Part shown: positions 25,892 through 33,617 of the stretch, piece after piece
Position numbering within the stretch: the stretch's first letter is position 1
How the letters are laid out: every line of letters begins with the position of its first letter
Origin: a virus
Virus record (IMG/VR): IMGVR_UViG_3300033182_001240
Span: 1-33,682 of that record
Length of the DNA: 33,682 nt
Strand: one strand, 5' to 3'
Made by a program: the position numbers and the translations under genes
The notes under the pieces: model-generated
Told to the model about the DNA's origin: nothing
The model's input: the letters and a program-made list of their open reading frames with translations, nothing else
The model's database searches: none

Positions 25892-27583
25892 TCACCCCAT
25901 GTAACTCGACCTCACCGCCCGCCGGCGCGGGGTGCGCCGGCCACCGGGGACGCCGTTGGCATCCGGGCTGCGCCGCTCCACCGCCGGGGCTACTTCCAAT
26001 TGCGCGACCAGTTCCGCCCACCGCGCCTCCGGCCAGCGGTCCGCGCCGAGGATCCACGCCGCGGCCCGGGCATAGACCCGGCAATCCAGCGCCTCGTTGC
26101 GCTCGCGCAGTTTTTGCCATTCCAGCTTCTGGAACCCGCGCTTGGTTTTCACGGTCACGAGCTGCTCCGCCGTCAGCTGCTTGAGCCATTCGGCATCGGA
26201 CCAGCCCGGCAGGTGAACTAGACCTGGGGAAGTGCGTTCACCGCCTGCCGGGCTGGTCTCAGGCGGGTCCTGCCGCAAGAAACGGTAGGTTTCTGCCTTG
26301 AACGTCGAGGTTGCCACAGTCCAAAGCCGCGCGCCACGGCGAAGTCGCTTGCCCCCGATTGTCGCGTCCACATAGGTCGGCCCCGTCACCGGGCTCGCCC
26401 GGTTGAACCCCTCCACGCCCTTGACCGGCGCGACTTGTCCAAAACCCGCCTGCCGCGCCCAGGCATAGACCGCGCTGGTCTCGAACCCAGTGTCTATCGC
26501 TAGCCGCGCGATAGTCATTGCCGTTCCGTTCTCATGCACCCATGTGCGCCCGAGCAGCTCGCTGAGCCGTTGCCAGCAGGCCGGATCCGCAGGGCCGCCC
26601 TCAAGCACGACATGGTCCACAAGCCAGCTTTCCAGCCCCTTGCCCCAAGCCCAGATATCGACCTCGATCCGGTCCTTCTGCACATCGGCACCCGCTGTCA
26701 GGAACAGCCCGCGTGAAGGGACAGACTCCGCAGGCCAATCTTCCTTAAGCCCCTGCAGGCGCTGCCAATCCGGCGCCTCGCCGCTCTCCATCCAGGTCTC
26801 ACCAAGCGACGTGTTCACGAAGGTCTTCATCGCCTCGTCGCCCCCGGCCCGCGCCGACAGAAACGCCCGCGCCATCGCCTCCAGTCGCACCCAGGGCGAA
26901 TAGATCTCGTTGAGATGGAACCCGGCCGTGCCCTCAAACGGCTTTTCGGCAATCCAGCGCCCCTTTGACACCGCCGCCCATCGCGCTTCATCCCGCCACT
27001 TTGCCTCACAGGCTATGCATTCATACCGCGCAGTCTCCGGCTTGTGCCGCCCGTCCTCGGTCTTGTCCCATTTGACCTGATACCATGTCAGCACCTGCTC
27101 GGTGCCGCAGTCTGGGCATGGCACCCAGAACCGCCGCTGGTCGCTTTCCTCAAAGGCCGTCTCGATCCGGCTCGCGCCCTTGTTCGTAGGCGTCGAAACC
27201 AGCACGATCTTGCGGTTCCAGAACGTGACCGTCCGCTTCTTCGCGAGGTTGACCGGGTCACCCTCTGCGCCGGCGCTGAACGGGTAGCGGTCCACCTCGT
27301 CACAGAGAAGCAAACGGATCGGCCGGCTCGCCAGACCAGAGGGCGCGTTCGCCCCCACGATCGTCAGGTGTCCGCCCGGAAACCGCTTGTGTAGGATCTT
27401 GTTGTTGCCGTCGCGCGACTTCGGGTTGGCGATCTTGTCCTGCAGGCAGGGCGTGTCCCGCGCCATGGGAGAGAAGCGGTCCTTCGACCAGGTCTCTGCG
27501 TCCCGCTCCGTCGGCATCACCACCATGATCGGCGCCGGGTCCTGATCGATGTGATAGCCGACTGCGTTGTTGAGCATCTCCGT

Positions 27584-28817
27584 GTTATGCGTCGGGATCA
27601 TGGTCCGCCCGGCCAGATATAGCCGGTTGGGACTGTCGACCTGAATGCACCGGACCGGCACGCTGTCGATCGGTTCGACGGCGACGATCCGACGCCGCTC
27701 TGTTTCCGTGGTGCGTCGCCCTTTTCGCGATGCCAGACGCGCCCGTTTCCTCGTCAGCCGGAAGATCGGCTTGTCGTCATAAACCATGAAGGAAAACCGC
27801 GTCACCGGTTTGCCGGGGCGGCGTTCACCGTCGATCACGGCCACAGGCTGTTTGACCAGGGGCGTGTATTTGACACCGAGGCTCGCCAGCAACTCGCCAA
27901 ACCCCTCGGCCAGACGAGGATAGATCGTCGCCAACTCGCAACGTCCGCGATCATCGATATACCCATCGCTGTCCATCAAGCCTTGCAGCAGAGCCAGCCG
28001 CTGATCATGCCCGGCGCGCAGGTAGGCGGGTGGGATATGCTTGCCGGTGTTCCGCGTCTTCCGCGATTTGATCAGGCCAAGCTCACGGAGGCGCAGGCTG
28101 AACGGTTTGGCCTCGGGCAGCACTGGATCAACAGGCCGGCCATATTGCCACTGCAGACTGAACTGACGCCCGCATTCCGCGCAATTACCTTTTGCATGGC
28201 GACCGAGCACATCCATGTCATGCCCGCGGCGGCAGATGTGGTCAGGCCAGGGAAGTATCGGCTTGAGCGTCAGAATATTCGGAAACCGCTTATCCTTGGC
28301 CCTGACCTCAACCTCCATGCCGCAGGCGCGAAGGTGATCGGCGATTTCCAGATCATCCATATGGCACGTGATCTGCGAACCGTAGCTATGGCCATCCCCA
28401 AGCCAGATGCCCAACACGTAGGGCGGGATCGGCAGATCGCGGTCCGGCAGGTGTAGCGCGCCTGCCACCGGGATGGCATAGCGGTTGCGTTTCTTCGACC
28501 CAAAGTAATGCGCAGTCTCAGCAATCTCCCTCGTCGTCAGGACCATGCGATGGCCGGTCATCGAACAGATCCCCCATCGCGTGGCAGGCATGAACATCGG
28601 TATCGGACTCGACCGCCCAGAGATGGTCGGCATCGGCAATGATCGAACTGCCATCGGAGAACCGGACCCGGTAACAGGGTCGGTCCAGCATCACGTCCGT
28701 GGCCCCTGTCACGCGGCAGGGCGCGCCGGTTTCATCGAACAGCATGTCGCCCACCTGCACCTCACCCATCGTGGTCCAGCCGGTTGGCGTCGGCAGCGGC
28801 GTGTCGAGCGCGAGGGC
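27584..28817 (-). mobile_element. Class 3 intein with LAGLIDADG homing endonuclease in the terminase P-loop
   Basis: The insertion lies between GK and T of the P-loop. It starts ALALDTPLPTPTGWTTMGEV (Ala at position 1, block A) and ends with TMIPTHN, followed by Thr. Block B has His65 and Trp67 in ADADHLWAV; block F has Cys in PVRCIQVDSP. Ala1, Trp in block B, Cys in block F and Thr+1 are the W-C-T signature of class 3 inteins. Two LAGLIDADG helices are visible (PYVLGIWLGDGH; ALLQGLMDSDGYI), with a putative zinc knuckle between them (HICRRGH...NCAECG). The length is 1234 bases, one more than a multiple of three, so one extra base breaks the frame. Confidence 0.88.
28540..28600 (-). other. Frameshift position within the intein
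   Basis: The first frame is good through HLWAVES and runs to a TGA at 28518. The continuing frame is good from MVLTTREIAETAHYF onward. Removing one G from the G5 run (CCCCC on the plus strand, 28571-28575) joins them as HAMGICSMTGHRMVLTT, a natural-looking text. A homopolymer indel, real or from sequencing, is the simplest explanation. Confidence 0.75.
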
Positions 28818-28929
28818 CTTGCCCACCTGCGCACTAGACATAATGACCACATGTTCCGTGGCAGCATCGGAAATGGCCGACATGATCCCGCGCTGGTATT
28901 CCGCGCGGCTGGTCCGCCACTGCCCGGGC

Positions 28930-29538
28930 TCAGCGCTCGCTTCCGAGCTCAGCCGCCGGTTCCGGTCCGCCCAGTCGGAGATCGTCAGCTCCGGCGGCGG
29001 CGTCAGCACGGCCAGGGCCCGCTCTACCGTCCGCTTCAGGATCGGCGAGCCCGTCAGGGTCATCTTCGGTTTGGCATTGAACATCGGGCTCTGCGAGATC
29101 CTCAAGCACCTCGCAGATCGCCGCGCGGATCAGGCTCCTTGTGTCTGGGATGGTCGCTTGCTCGAAGGCCTGCGGGGCCAGCCGATCGGGCAACGACAAC
29201 AGCCGCGTGCGCAACAGCGCGAGCACTGCGATCCAGGCGGCTTCCACGTCCGCGGCGTCAATCACGCTGCCGCGTTTCTGCGCGGCTTCCATTTCCGCGA
29301 GATCGGCGCGGGCCCGGATGAAGCGCGCGCGTTCCACCGCGTAGTCCGGAGCGCCGGCCTGTGCCTGGACCGCCTGTTCGCGCAGGTAGCGCACATAGCC
29401 CCGGACCGACCCGATCAGGTCATACTGCCCCCGCGTGGCCTTTGGGATCACGCCCTCCCGGCTCAGCTGCTGCACCCGGCGCTCGGACAGGTCCAGCAGC
29501 TTGGCGATCACCGCCAGGGGTTGGGTCGCAGCAGCCAT
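28930..29538 (-). CDS. Terminase small subunit (Nu1-like)
   Basis: A 202-residue protein. The N-terminal ~55 residues form a winged-helix DNA-binding domain (PLAVIAKLLDLSERRVQQLS, then REGVIPKATRGQYDLI), followed by helices typical of Nu1-type subunits (VERARFIRARADLAEMEAAQ, WIAVLALLRTRLLSLPDRLA). It recognises the packaging site and recruits the large subunit. The last ~45 residues are Asp/Ala/Gly-rich and are read through the start of the large subunit gene in a second frame, giving an overlap of about 155 bases. The start faces the plus-strand operon across a 136-base divergent gap. Confidence 0.88.
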   Translation of the reverse strand: MAAATQPLAVIAKLLDLSERRVQQLSREGVIPKATRGQYDLIGSVRGYVRYLREQAVQAQAGAPDYAVERARFIRARADLAEMEAAQKRGSVIDAADVEAAWIAVLALLRTRLLSLPDRLAPQAFEQATIPDTRSLIRAAICEVLEDLAEPDVQCQTEDDPDGLADPEADGRAGPGRADAAAGADDLRLGGPEPAAELGSER

Positions 29539-29674
29539 GATGTGATCCGGTTATGGAGATTAAAGCAATGATATCGCGCCGAATTCCGTTGATGATGCTG
29601 CCCAGCAGAGCAACTCTGGGGGCCACGCAAAAGGGTGCATCGCGCGCCTTGTCTCAAGCCCCAAGGAGGCCCCC

Positions 29675-29893
29675 ATGGCTGCCATCACCACCATCCGCAT
29701 CGACTTCGACGCCCTACCAGATCACTTTGACCGATCGCGCCCCGAAATCATCGCCGACACCATTCAGGACGCCCTGCGCGAGCAGGGCATCGAGGCCAAC
29801 GCCACGGATGTCATCGACGTGATCCGCGTGGAAATGCCCACCTCGCAGCTTGCTGCTGCATGCGCGGCACTTACCGACATGCAGCTCATTTGA
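29675..29893 (+). CDS. Small hypothetical phage protein
   Basis: A 72-residue acidic protein (MAAITTIRIDFDALPDHFDR...). AAGGAGG lies five bases before the ATG, a strong ribosome binding site, so translation is likely. Predicted alpha/beta, no membrane segment, family not recognised. It is the first gene of a plus-strand operon that diverges from the terminase and runs to the AlpA-like gene. Confidence 0.8.
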   Translation: MAAITTIRIDFDALPDHFDRSRPEIIADTIQDALREQGIEANATDVIDVIRVEMPTSQLAAACAALTDMQLI

Positions 29894-29907
29894 AGGGGGC
29901 CTTAGCC

Positions 29908-30177
29908 GTGACCCGCCTGAACCCGATCACCACGCCCCGCCACCAGCTGCGCGCCGAGAAAGCCCGGCGGAACAGAGAGGCTGCGCTGGCGGCCTTCATG
30001 GCGAAGAAGGCGGAGATCGACGAGATGCTGGCCCGGCTTCAAAGCCTTAGCGATGACCATTTCAACCGCGATCCCGACGCCCTGAACTGGAGCGATGTGG
30101 GCGATCTCGACCACTACGCCGGCCTCCTGCGCCGCATCACCGACAGCGCCTTTGGCGAAGGGGAGTTCAAGGAATGA
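29908..30177 (+). CDS. Small hypothetical helical protein
   Basis: Read from a GTG at 29908, 89 residues, chosen because AAGGGGG lies eight bases upstream; the in-frame ATG at 29860 would overlap the previous gene by 34 bases. The first half is a basic helix with EKARRNREAALAAFMAKKAE, then an acidic C-terminal part (DPDALNWSDVGDLDHYAGLL). Family not recognised. Its TGA overlaps the next start (ATGA). Confidence 0.75.
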   Translation: MTRLNPITTPRHQLRAEKARRNREAALAAFMAKKAEIDEMLARLQSLSDDHFNRDPDALNWSDVGDLDHYAGLLRRITDSAFGEGEFKE

Positions 30178-30359
30178 AGACCCTCGCCGAACGTTACAAT
30201 GCCGAAGCGGAACGGATCATGCCGCATATGGCAAAGGACCTGACGGTCGATCCGTCCATCGATCGCGTGGGCGAGATCGACGAGATCGTCTTTCGCCGCG
30301 GCGAATATCTCGGCGGCATGGCCGCCGTCCTGCTGGCGCTGATCGCGCACGACGCCTGA
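30174..30359 (+). CDS. Small hypothetical protein
   Basis: A 61-residue protein (MKTLAERYNAEAERIMPHMA...) coupled by ATGA to the gene before it. Mostly helical, with a hydrophobic C-terminal end (GGMAAVLLALIAHDA) too short to call a membrane anchor. Family not recognised. About 90 bases separate it from the DUF3489 gene. Confidence 0.72.
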   Translation: MKTLAERYNAEAERIMPHMAKDLTVDPSIDRVGEIDEIVFRRGEYLGGMAAVLLALIAHDA

Positions 30360-30449
30360 GCAAGCGCGCCTCCGCTCCGGCCCGCCTCACTGGCGGGCTT
30401 GAAGCCGTAGAAGCCGCGCATCCCGTGCGGCTCGAAACGGGAGACAATC

Positions 30450-31007
30450 ATGACTAACCTGTCCGACACACAACTCATCATCCTCAGCGCCGCTGCACAG
30501 CGGGAGAACCAGATCGCCCTGCCCCTGCCCGACAGCCTGCGCGGCGGCGCCGCAACCAAGGTTGTCGAGGCAATGCTTCGCAAAGGCCTCCTCGAAGAGG
30601 TCGAGGCCGACATGCGCAACGGCGAGCCCGTCTGGCGTGAGACAGGGGACGGCCATGGCGTCACGCTGGTCGCCACCGACGCAGGGCTCACAGCGATCGG
30701 CATTGAGCCGGAGGGCACAGCAGACTTTCAAGCTGAGACGGCCGAACCGACCACCCCCACCACGCCCCTGACCGCACCCAAACCGTCCGCACATCGCGCA
30801 GGCACCAAGCAAGCCCGAATGATCGAGATGCTGAAGGCCGAAGGCGGCGCAACCATCGACGAGATGGCTGCGGCTTTGTCGTGGGCGCCACACACCTGTC
30901 GCGGCGCTATGTCGGGTGCGCTCAAGAAGAAGCTCGGCCTGATGATTACCTCCGAGAAGATCGAAGGGCGTGGGCGTTGCTATCGGATCGAGCAGGAGGC
31001 GCGTTGA
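30450..31007 (+). CDS. DUF3489 domain protein
   Basis: A 185-residue protein with GGGAGA seven bases before the ATG. The N-terminal ~90 residues carry a winged-helix-like pattern (MTNLSDTQLIILSAAAQREN; VTLVATDAGLTAIGI). After a Thr/Pro linker, the C-terminal domain 'TKQARMIEMLKAEGGATIDE', 'MAAALSWAPHTCRGAMSGAL' and 'KKKLGLMITSEKIEGRGRCY' is DUF3489, a helix-turn-helix-like unit common in alphaproteobacterial phages and mobile elements. DNA binding is likely. Its stop overlaps the next start by one base (TGATG). Confidence 0.88.
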   Translation: MTNLSDTQLIILSAAAQRENQIALPLPDSLRGGAATKVVEAMLRKGLLEEVEADMRNGEPVWRETGDGHGVTLVATDAGLTAIGIEPEGTADFQAETAEPTTPTTPLTAPKPSAHRAGTKQARMIEMLKAEGGATIDEMAAALSWAPHTCRGAMSGALKKKLGLMITSEKIEGRGRCYRIEQEAR

Positions 31008-31198
31008 TGCCTACCGTCCTGCTGAAGCGCCCCGAAGTCACCCGCAGAACCGGCCTAAGTAGAAGCACGCTGTACGTCTGGATGGCCCGTGGTGCGTTTC
31101 CCAAACCCATCAAGCTCGGCACTCGAAGTATCGCATGGCGTGAAAGCGATATCGAGGCTTGGATCGATGAGCGAGAGAAGTTAAGTCAATCTTCGTGA
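31007..31198 (+). CDS. AlpA-family transcriptional regulator / excisionase-like protein
   Basis: A 63-residue protein (MPTVLLKRPEVTRRTGLSRS). It shows the AlpA/MerR-type helix-turn-helix: VTRRTGLSRSTLYVWMARGA, FPKPIKLGTRSIAWRESDIE and AWIDEREK. AlpA proteins activate excision genes or act as recombination directionality factors. Here no integrase is seen in the window. It is coupled to the DUF3489 gene and is the last gene before the terminator at 31221-31246. It ends 18 bases inside the convergent DUF7220-type gene. Confidence 0.9.
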   Translation: MPTVLLKRPEVTRRTGLSRSTLYVWMARGAFPKPIKLGTRSIAWRESDIEAWIDEREKLSQSS

Positions 31199-31501
31199 AG
31201 AGTTCCCTTCACTGTCTTGCGCCAGCCTCGCGCTGGCCCTTTTTTTGCGCAGCCAGCGGAACAGCATATCCAGCCAGAACTTCCGCGACAGCGACATCCA
31301 CATGAGGACAACGGCGAAGGTCGCGTATCCACTTGCCTCAACCTCAAAGCCGAATATGGGCAAGACGAGCCATACAGTCAGCAGGTAGGTGAGATACATC
31401 GACAAGACGTCGAGGATGGCCTCCGCCAGTCCCAAAACATCGCCGCCCGCCTGCGGCTCGGGCATTGTATGGTCCTGCCCTGCTCCTAAATCTTCCGCCA
31501 T
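31181..31501 (-). CDS. DUF7220-like two-helix membrane protein
   Basis: A 106-residue protein from the ATG at 31501; an AAGGAG lies upstream at a suitable distance, which fixes this start over the in-frame codons further right. Two hydrophobic segments (LSMYLTYLLTVWLVLPIFGF and YATFAVVLMWMSLSRKFWLD) and a basic tail with FRWLRKKRASAR match the layout of DUF7220 proteins found in Rhodobacterales phages. Function unknown. On the minus strand it would follow the methyltransferase directly if the CIA30 gene were absent. Its start codon overlaps that of the CIA30 gene by two bases. Confidence 0.8.
   Translation of the reverse strand: MAEDLGAGQDHTMPEPQAGGDVLGLAEAILDVLSMYLTYLLTVWLVLPIFGFEVEASGYATFAVVLMWMSLSRKFWLDMLFRWLRKKRASARLAQDSEGNSSRRLT
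31221..31246 (+). terminator. Intrinsic terminator of the plus-strand operon
   Basis: GCCAGC (31221-31226), a 5-base loop, GCTGGC (31232-31237), then CC and seven Ts (31240-31246). It lies 22 bases after the AlpA-like stop. It is also inside the coding sequence of the minus-strand DUF7220-type gene, so the hairpin is under coding constraint in the other direction. Confidence 0.88.
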
Positions 31502-32147
31502 GACAGACGAGCTCCTTTCCTCATCAAAAGCCGCCGAGGTCATCGACGACTTGCGCTTTGACCCGCCCGTCGCCGTAACCGGCAACGGATGGGCCTTGAT
31601 CTCCGACCGTGTGATGGGCGGTCTGTCCGACGGTGCCATGACGCGCGAAACAGTCTCGGGGCGAGACGCGATCCGCATGCGCGGTGGCGTGAGCCTCGAC
31701 AACAATGGTGGCTTCCTTCAGGTCGCCCTTGATCTTGGCGAAGCAGGCGTTGTGGTGGATGCATCCGACTGGGATGGCATCCAGCTCGACGTGCTCGGCA
31801 ATGGAGCCCGGTACAATCTCCATCTGCGCACCAGCGATCTGGCGCGACCCTGGCAATCCTACCGGCAGAGTTTCATTGCCCCGGCTGAGTGGACGACCGT
31901 GCAGTTGCCCTTCTCAGGCTTCACCCCGCACCGCACGGACCTGACACTCAACCTGCGACGGTTGCGGCGGCTCGGGATCGTCGCCATCGGATCCGAGTTG
32001 GAAGCCGATATCGCGATCGCGGATATCCGTTCTATGCGGCAGAGCCTGCCTCCGACTCATCAGGCCCGTCCACCGGCTGACCCCGCCCCTCGGCAATCTC
32101 GTCGAACGTGCGACCGTCGCCCTCCAGCACGGCGTCCCGCCCCGTGA
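31500..32147 (+). CDS. CIA30-family protein (NADH:ubiquinone oxidoreductase intermediate-associated protein 30 type)
   Basis: A 215-residue protein from the ATG at 31500; in-frame starts further upstream run through the DUF7220 gene. The CIA30 galactose-binding-like beta-sandwich is clear: WALISDRVMGGLSDG, 'LDNNGGFLQVALDLG', 'DWDGIQLDVLGNGARYNLHL', 'SYRQSFIAPAEWTTVQLPFS' and 'RLGIVAIGSELEADIAIADI'. In eukaryotes the family helps complex I assembly; bacterial roles are poorly known. The domain ends near residue 177; the last ~38 residues (Pro/Arg-rich) read antisense through the end of the methyltransferase, as though the original stop was lost. No Shine-Dalgarno is seen, so leaderless translation is possible. 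Confidence 0.88.
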   Translation: MTDELLSSSKAAEVIDDLRFDPPVAVTGNGWALISDRVMGGLSDGAMTRETVSGRDAIRMRGGVSLDNNGGFLQVALDLGEAGVVVDASDWDGIQLDVLGNGARYNLHLRTSDLARPWQSYRQSFIAPAEWTTVQLPFSGFTPHRTDLTLNLRRLRRLGIVAIGSELEADIAIADIRSMRQSLPPTHQARPPADPAPRQSRRTCDRRPPARRPAP

Positions 32148-33306
32148 ACTGCTGCCAGCGTTTCACAGCCACGTCGACATAGGCCGGGTTCAACTCAATC
32201 CCGAGGCAGACGCGTCCGGTGGTTTCCGCCGCGATCAGCGTCGTGCCGGATCCCATGAACGGCTCGTAGACCGCCTGGCCCGGGCTGGAGTTGTTCAGGA
32301 TCGGGCGCCGCATGCACTCAACCGGCTTTTGCGTGCCGTGGACTGTGTCCGCGTCCTGGTCCTTGTTCGCGATCTGCCACAGCGTCGTCTGTTTGCGGTC
32401 CCCGGCCCAGTGGCCCTTTCCGGTCTTCTTGACAGCGTAGAGGCAGGGTTCGTGCTGCCAATGATAATCACCCCGGCTCAGCACCAGCCGGTCTTTGGCC
32501 CAGATGATCTGGGACCGGATCGCAAAGCCGCAGGCTTCGAGGCTCTCGGCGACTGCTGTCGCGTGCAGCGCACCGTGCCAGACATACGCTACATCGCCGG
32601 GAAACAGTGCCCAGGCCTCGCGCCAGTCGGCGCGGTGGTCATTGAGCACCTTGCCGGTGCGCTTGGTCCTGGCCGCGCCAGCCTGGTTGCGCCAGCCCGG
32701 ATCGTAGTCGACGCCGTAGGGCGGATCGCTGACCAGCAGGAGCGGCGACACGCCGTCCATCACCCGCTCCACGTCCGTCGCCACCGTGCTGTCGCCGCAG
32801 AGCAGCCGATGTTTGCCGAGCACCCACAGATCACCGGGGCGGCTGATCGGATCCTCGGGTGTTTCCGGGACCTCGTCCTCGCCCTCTTGCGCGCCGGTCT
32901 CGTCCTCGGACAGGCCGCTGAGCAGCCCGTTCAGTTCTTCATCCGTGAAGCCAGTCAGCCCAAGATCGAAGTCGGCCTCAAGCAGGTCACCGAGCTCCAG
33001 GTTCAGCAGGTCGGTGTCCCACTCGGCGTTTTCGCTGGAGCGGTTGTCCATGATCCGGAACGCCCGCGCCTGGGCGTCGGTCAGCCCCTTGGCGATGTGC
33101 ACCGGCGCGGTCTCAAGCCCAAGCTGGCGCGCCGCGGCAAGCCGCGTGTGCCCGGCCAGAACCACCATCTGCTCATCGACCACGATCGGCTGGCGCCAGC
33201 CGAACTCGGCGATGGACGCGGCCACACTGGCCACGGCCTTCTCGTTGCGGCGCGGGTTGCGCGCATAGGGAATGATCTGCTCAAGCGGCAGGTCGGTGAC
33301 GTTCAT
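32032..33306 (-). CDS. ParB-like nuclease/partition domain fused to a beta-class DNA methyltransferase
   Basis: A 424-residue protein. Residues ~1-110 are a ParB/Srx-type domain (IPYARNPRRNEKAVASVAAS, VVLAGHTRLAAARQLG). After an acidic linker comes an N6-adenine/N4-cytosine methyltransferase: catalytic SDPPYGVDYDPGW (motif IV), target-recognition region, then EPFMGSGTTLIAAE and GIELNPAYVDVAVKRW (motifs I and X). The order IV before I is the beta class. Such orphan phage enzymes protect DNA against restriction or regulate. Recognition sequence cannot be read. It is the rightmost gene, with a repeat-rich control region upstream. Confidence 0.95.
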   Translation of the reverse strand: MNVTDLPLEQIIPYARNPRRNEKAVASVAASIAEFGWRQPIVVDEQMVVLAGHTRLAAARQLGLETAPVHIAKGLTDAQARAFRIMDNRSSENAEWDTDLLNLELGDLLEADFDLGLTGFTDEELNGLLSGLSEDETGAQEGEDEVPETPEDPISRPGDLWVLGKHRLLCGDSTVATDVERVMDGVSPLLLVSDPPYGVDYDPGWRNQAGAARTKRTGKVLNDHRADWREAWALFPGDVAYVWHGALHATAVAESLEACGFAIRSQIIWAKDRLVLSRGDYHWQHEPCLYAVKKTGKGHWAGDRKQTTLWQIANKDQDADTVHGTQKPVECMRRPILNNSSPGQAVYEPFMGSGTTLIAAETTGRVCLGIELNPAYVDVAVKRWQQFTGRDAVLEGDGRTFDEIAEGRGQPVDGPDESEAGSAA

Positions 33307-33360: not shown

Positions 33361-33416
33361 CGAAACGAAGCGGCGTGAGGTTGCGAAACGAAACGGCCCT
33401 ACAGCGCGAAACGAAA
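33361..33416 (+). repeat. Three CGAAACGAA direct repeats at exact 23-bp spacing
   Basis: CGAAACGAA(A/G) occurs at 33361-33370, 33384-33393 and 33407-33416; the starts differ by exactly 23 bases twice. A further direct copy lies at 33496-33505 and an inverted copy (TTTCGTTTC) at 33433-33441. Equal spacing of about two helical turns is what iterons or tandem protein-binding sites show. Confidence 0.85.
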
Positions 33417-33441
33417 TGGGGTCAGGGGGCCATTTCGTTTC
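33408..33441. repeat. Perfect 12-bp inverted repeat
   Basis: GAAACGAAATGG (33408-33419) and CCATTTCGTTTC (33430-33441) are exact reverse complements with a 10-base spacer. The left arm is the third of the direct repeats, so the site combines direct and inverted copies of the same word. A T-tract typical of a terminator is absent on either side. Confidence 0.85.
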
Positions 33442-33454
33442 AGAGGGGGGTGCG

Positions 33455-33480
33455 GGGGTCTCGGACCCCTTGTTTCATTG
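33455..33480 (+). terminator. Possible intrinsic terminator
   Basis: GGGGTC (33455-33460), loop TCG, GACCCC (33464-33469), followed by TTGTTTCATTG. The stem is short (six GC-rich pairs) and the T-tract broken, so it is a weak candidate. There is no plus-strand gene directly before it; it might block antisense reading into the region beyond. Confidence 0.35.
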
Positions 33481-33617
33481 AGTCAGTGCGCAAAACGAAA
33501 CGAAACGGGTGTTTTTGCGGGTGTCACTGGGAAAGCGTCGCGCCTCGCCCCCCCGAATACAGTCACAAACAGGAGGGACCCGTTCAATTTCAATGGGTTG
33601 CGTGTCTCACAAAATCG

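Follow-up and report, generated by a model that had tools for sequence, protein, structure and literature searches.

At 33361–33504 of the window, by which we mean the whole 33,682-base viral record analysed here, lies an array of short repeats. The window has exactly four copies of the word CGAAACGAA, each of them inside this interval (plus strand, starting at 33361, 33384, 33407 and 33496); 0.34 copies would be expected, and none of 100 shuffles reached four. Steps of 23 bp separate the starts of the first three copies, and the fourth lies 89 bp further on; none of 1,000 Markov-1 resamples of the window gave even three copies within 150 nt. The array contains an exact 12-bp inverted repeat with a 10-nt loop (33408–33419 against 33430–33441), and the arm at 33430–33441 is a fifth copy of the repeat unit. 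A preliminary description of this DNA had reported the four repeats with their spacing and the perfect inverted repeat, and all of these are borne out. It had the array right, but it missed the fifth copy and the rest of the element, which reaches about 33583 and takes in a putative cosN and cosQ (Table 1).

In the minus-strand direction, the array precedes a gene for a ParB-domain DNA methyltransferase, a group of plus-strand ORFs, the genes for the small terminase (TerS) and large terminase (TerL), and a lambda-family portal gene. The plus-strand ORFs (29553–32147) include those for a DUF3489 protein (30450–31007), a short HTH product (31007–31198) and a CIA30-domain protein (31389–32147), and the end of the CIA30-domain gene overlaps the methyltransferase gene.

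The family assignment of TerS is shared with lambda Nu1, which also matches phrog_57. TerS has a wHTH-like N terminus and is 24% identical to Nu1 by pairwise alignment; hhalign of the two alone gave a weak match, and the Pfam Phage_Nu1 match was below the cut-off. A PDB search with TerS found nothing, and an AlphaFold model of residues 1–161 was poor (mean pLDDT 57.5). An intein-like insert that carries a LAGLIDADG_3 domain breaks the Walker A motif of TerL (SSAQVGK, then ALALDTPLPTPTGWTTMGEVQVGD). The two halves of TerL are in different frames (near 28518–28654), which may reflect a real lesion or a sequencing or assembly error. Because of this frameshift, the window's copy may be defective.

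Table 1. Positions of the candidate cos elements and of the nearby genes in the window.
Feature	Positions	Strand	Sequence	Basis or remark
cosQ-like element	33576–33583	-	ACGGGTCC	alignment with lambda right end, which also has ACGGGTCC
cosN, predicted 11-nt 5' cohesive end	33543–33553	-	GGGGGGCGAGG	homology with lambda and RcDormio/RcKemmy
R3	33496–33508	-	CCGTTTCGTTTCG	CGTTTC at virion bp 47 (lambda 53)
R3–R2 spacer	33442–33495	.		place of lambda's I1 (IHF) bend
R2, inverted copy	33430–33441	+	TTTCGTTTC within CCATTTCGTTTC	about virion bp 113 (lambda 115); inverted-repeat arm
R1	33407–33419	-	CCATTTCGTTTCG	TTTCG at virion bp 138 (lambda R1 CGTTTC at 155); other inverted-repeat arm
R0, first extra copy	33384–33396	-	CCGTTTCGTTTCG	23 bp past R1
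Second extra copy	33361–33373	-	CCGCTTCGTTTCG	46 bp past R1
ParB-N domain and N6/N4 DNA methyltransferase	32032–33306	-		Pfam PF02195, PF01555; phrog_498
TerS, small terminase	28930–29538	-		phrog_57, E=2e-30
TerL, large terminase, lambda gpA family	25892–29105	-		Pfam GpA_ATPase, GpA_nuclease; translation; phrog_15

Comparison with lambda and the predicted cut

Among the closest known systems is the complex cosB, R3-I1-R2-R1, of the cos site of lambda (and of 21, phi80 and Gifsy-1). Lambda-like cosB sites keep this order, and their R2 points the other way from R3 and R1 (PMC9026076; PMC4669245). Read on the minus strand, 33361–33583 runs in the same way: the cosQ-like element (GGGTCC), the predicted cosN, R3 (>), R2 (<), R1 (>) and two extra forward copies. 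Judged by alignment, the putative cosQ, cosN and R3-R2-R1 units have lambda's order and orientation at similar distances, and this arrangement is conserved in about 90 relatives.

The lambda right end is ACGGGTCCTTTCCGGTGATCCGACAGGTTACG and its left end begins GGGCGGCGACCT, so that lambda reads ACGGGTCC...TTACG/GGGCGGCGACCT (slash, cut); the window reads ACGGGTCC...TATTCG/GGGGGGCGAGG, or more fully ACGGGTCCCTCCTGTTTGTGACTGTATTCG/GGGGGGCGAGGCGCG. The predicted top-strand nick would fall between 33554 and 33553, making 33553 virion bp 1 in the minus-strand reading. The distance from the start of cosQ to this cut is 30 bp, compared with 32 bp in lambda. Counting from the cut, lambda has CGTTTC at 53 and 155, with inverted GAAACG between them at 115; the window's first unit stands at 47, its inverted one at about 113 and the next at about 136, with two more at 23-bp steps. 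The R consensus of the window's group, CCCGTTTCGTTTCG, is similar to that of lambda, GTCGTTTCCTTTCT.

Lambda and the window have in common cosQ, a forward R3, inverted R2 and forward R1 with the core CGTTTC-TTTC, a gpA-family TerL and a phrog_57 TerS; the cut predicted for the window would, like lambda's, follow CG and leave a G-rich 5' overhang. They differ in overhang length (a predicted 11 nt in the window, 12 in lambda) and in R2–R1 spacing (about 24 bp as against 40). The window also adds one or two forward R copies and shows no clear IHF site, and its cos is separated from terS by a methyltransferase gene and further ORFs. We looked for a good IHF site between R3 and R2 and did not find one: the spacer holds a weak IHF-like match, with a mean best score of 7.1 out of 9 where shuffles give 6.0 and lambda 8. 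It also contains an A-rich stretch, imperfectly conserved, and a short dyad, and its hairpin is barely above shuffles. Likewise, there is no clear dyad at the expected centre of cosN, by a simple score that missed lambda's own centre too.

Sequenced ends are available from phages of Rhodobacter capsulatus. In those of cluster RcC, 5' overhangs of 11 bases were read by sequencing (PMC8601537). The deposited records of RcDormio and RcKemmy begin GGGGGCGGAAGCGCG, that is, at GGGGGCGGAAG, and that of RcDormio ends CTATGCG. In the RcC phages (RcOceanus, RcDormio, RcKemmy) CTATGCG is followed by GGGGGCGGAAG and then CGCG, and the cut is at the place corresponding to the window's. Like the window, they have an array inside the left end, a ParB-domain gene, terS (phrog_57) and terL (phrog_15, the assignment of RcOceanus TerL). 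Unlike the window, they have a GTTTCCACTT-like repeat and a GGTTCTT-like cosQ, and their ParB gene, as annotated, lacks the methyltransferase half. Three copies of GTTTCCACTT lie just inside the sequenced left end (L279 1–90, L281 1–90, L276 150–240), and this array is likely to be a third class of cosB. On the strength of the correspondence with the lambda cut and with the sequenced RcC ends, we predict that the window's overhang is GGGGGGCGAGG.

Conservation in relatives and host genomes

The element is conserved well beyond the window. The array is present in 17 loci picked by their methyltransferase alone (L003–L019), and the block on its far side, ACGGGTCC...GTAT.CGGGGGGGCGAGG...TTTCCCAGTGAC, is better conserved than the array itself. 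The cosQ-like element is kept in all 17 aligned relatives (single changes allowed) and in both of the cosB classes described below. A pattern scan matched 103 viral stretches and 44 in bacterial genomes, the latter mainly from Rhodobacterales, with some Hyphomicrobiales and uncertain bins. Laboratory isolates with the site include Roseobacter sp. MED193 and Tropicibacter naphthalenivorans.

The positions of the units are also kept. All 93 class I sites have R3 at the same position, a figure that is partly built in because the scan pattern confined R3 to a limited range. The pattern made no demand on R2 and R1; R2 was found in 86 of the 93, inverted every time, with a forward R1 next in 85. The layout is fixed in 80 viral sites, and a subset has R2 and R1 shifted together by 20 bp (two helical turns). 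An extra copy of the R0 kind is present in 28 of the 93.

The two checks that the preliminary description named as possible refutations do not refute the feature. Similar prophages do have the array, and a search of 12 host genomes for the 12-mer CGTTTCGTTTCG gave a single copy in 10 of them and two and three copies in the others. In the contig sets, ends did not pile up at the predicted cut, a result that says little either way; a single contig, L249, ends 13 nt past it. Searches of phage and plasmid records with the site DNA gave chance-level matches or none, and our searches of open papers turned up no account of the site for this group of phages.

Repeat type and the small terminase

The type of repeat goes with the small terminase and not with the methyltransferase. 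We counted distinct cosQ-cosN sites with TerS in view. Class I sites, which have CGTTTCGTTTCG, carry the window's TerS type, S1, in 47 of 48 cases; sites with the same cosQ and cosN but another repeat (class II) carry TerS S2 in 19 of 19. Fisher's test for repeat type against TerS type gives 8e-16, which is not a true probability because the sequences are related. Class II cos sites (L020–L046 and L062, from related alphaproteobacterial viruses) have the same cosQ, cosN and downstream methyltransferase, but they differ from the window in the repeat sequence (TTTTTTGGGAAGCCACC at the R3 place) and in TerS. Methyltransferases downstream of the same array span about 51–87% identity. Those of 51–59% identity that accompany TerS S1 keep class I repeats, whereas those of 71–76% identity that accompany TerS S2 have class II repeats.

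The one exception, L181, combines a class I cos with a class II-type TerS (89% identity) and could be a hybrid or a recombinant, or else a product of faulty assembly. At two loci (L236 and L237) the same cosQ-cosN lies directly before terS, with neither the methyltransferase nor the class I array. Roseobacter phage CRP-831 (L265 80–100) has a TerS 38% identical to the window's and a single GAAACGAAAC just upstream of terS. In Aurantimonas phage AmM-1 the methyltransferase gene adjoins terS; its record begins at the terS gene and so is silent on the cut.

From the pairing of repeats with TerS we infer that TerS binds the R sites. The preliminary description held that the binding protein was absent from the window or unrecognised; the probable binder is instead encoded there, as the phrog_57 protein at 28930–29538 on the minus strand.

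Competing readings and the proposed role

The array could be thought of as the operator or promoter of the ParB-methyltransferase gene, with a repressor or the ParB domain binding the repeats to control it. In almost every relative it sits immediately upstream of the start of the methyltransferase gene, and ParB-domain proteins and methyltransferases can autoregulate. However, the repeats change with TerS type (S1 or S2) and not with methyltransferase identity, and an operator has no need of cosQ and cosN at a fixed distance. We reject this reading because repeat type tracks TerS, and we regard it as very improbable; the earlier proposal of a methyltransferase control region falls with it, since methyltransferases of about 51–87% identity share the array. 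A side role of the array in regulating the methyltransferase may nevertheless exist. Direct repeats at 23 bp, about two helical turns, would also suit replication iterons or a repressor operator array. Yet the neighbours of the array, in the window and in relatives, are methyltransferase and terminase genes, with no initiator gene beside it; the unit keeps a set distance from a lambda-like cut site and tracks TerS type; and R2 is inverted wherever it is found, as in lambda. Neither the replication initiator nor the repressor put forward in the preliminary description is therefore supported, and we reject iterons, to which we give almost no chance, for want of an initiator and in view of the surrounding cos elements.

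A different question is whether the site still works. The split of TerL over two frames within the intein-like insert, whether real lesion or assembly error, would fit a degenerate cos in a decaying prophage, but the window's cosQ, cosN and all R units agree with the consensus of relatives, and we think decay unlikely.

We conclude, with a probability of roughly 94%, that a lambda-type cos site lies here and that the array is its terminase-loading part, cosB. The suggestion, among those first made, that such an array serves a packaging protein is the one that the comparisons favour. A lambda-type cos with an enlarged cosB, ordinary in kind, is well supported. Late in infection, TerS dimers would dock on R3 and R2 (and on R1 and the extra copies) and would bring the gpA-family TerL to cosN. 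TerL would then nick both strands 11 bp apart at 33543–33553, giving 5'-GGGGGGCGAGG ends. Packaging would start from the cosB side and run through the methyltransferase and terminase genes, and cosQ would halt it at the next cos on the concatemer. The methyltransferase nearly always sits between cos and the terminase genes. There is a slim chance that this ParB-domain protein has a part in packaging, perhaps by loading at cosB or acting on it; if so, cos, the ParB-like protein and terminase would form one recognition module.

The site is a fresh example of a well-known device, and its usefulness comes from the exact naming of a predicted cut and a probable binder. For a large group of viruses of Rhodobacterales and relatives, uncultured or known as prophages, it gives an exact, predicted point at which packaging starts. 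It places lambda's cosQ-cosN-R3-R2-R1 plan in alphaproteobacterial phages, including marine Rhodobacterales viruses. Moreover, the repeat set appears to have been swapped together with TerS while the cutting site stayed unchanged, which would provide natural pairs for studies of DNA recognition by small terminases.
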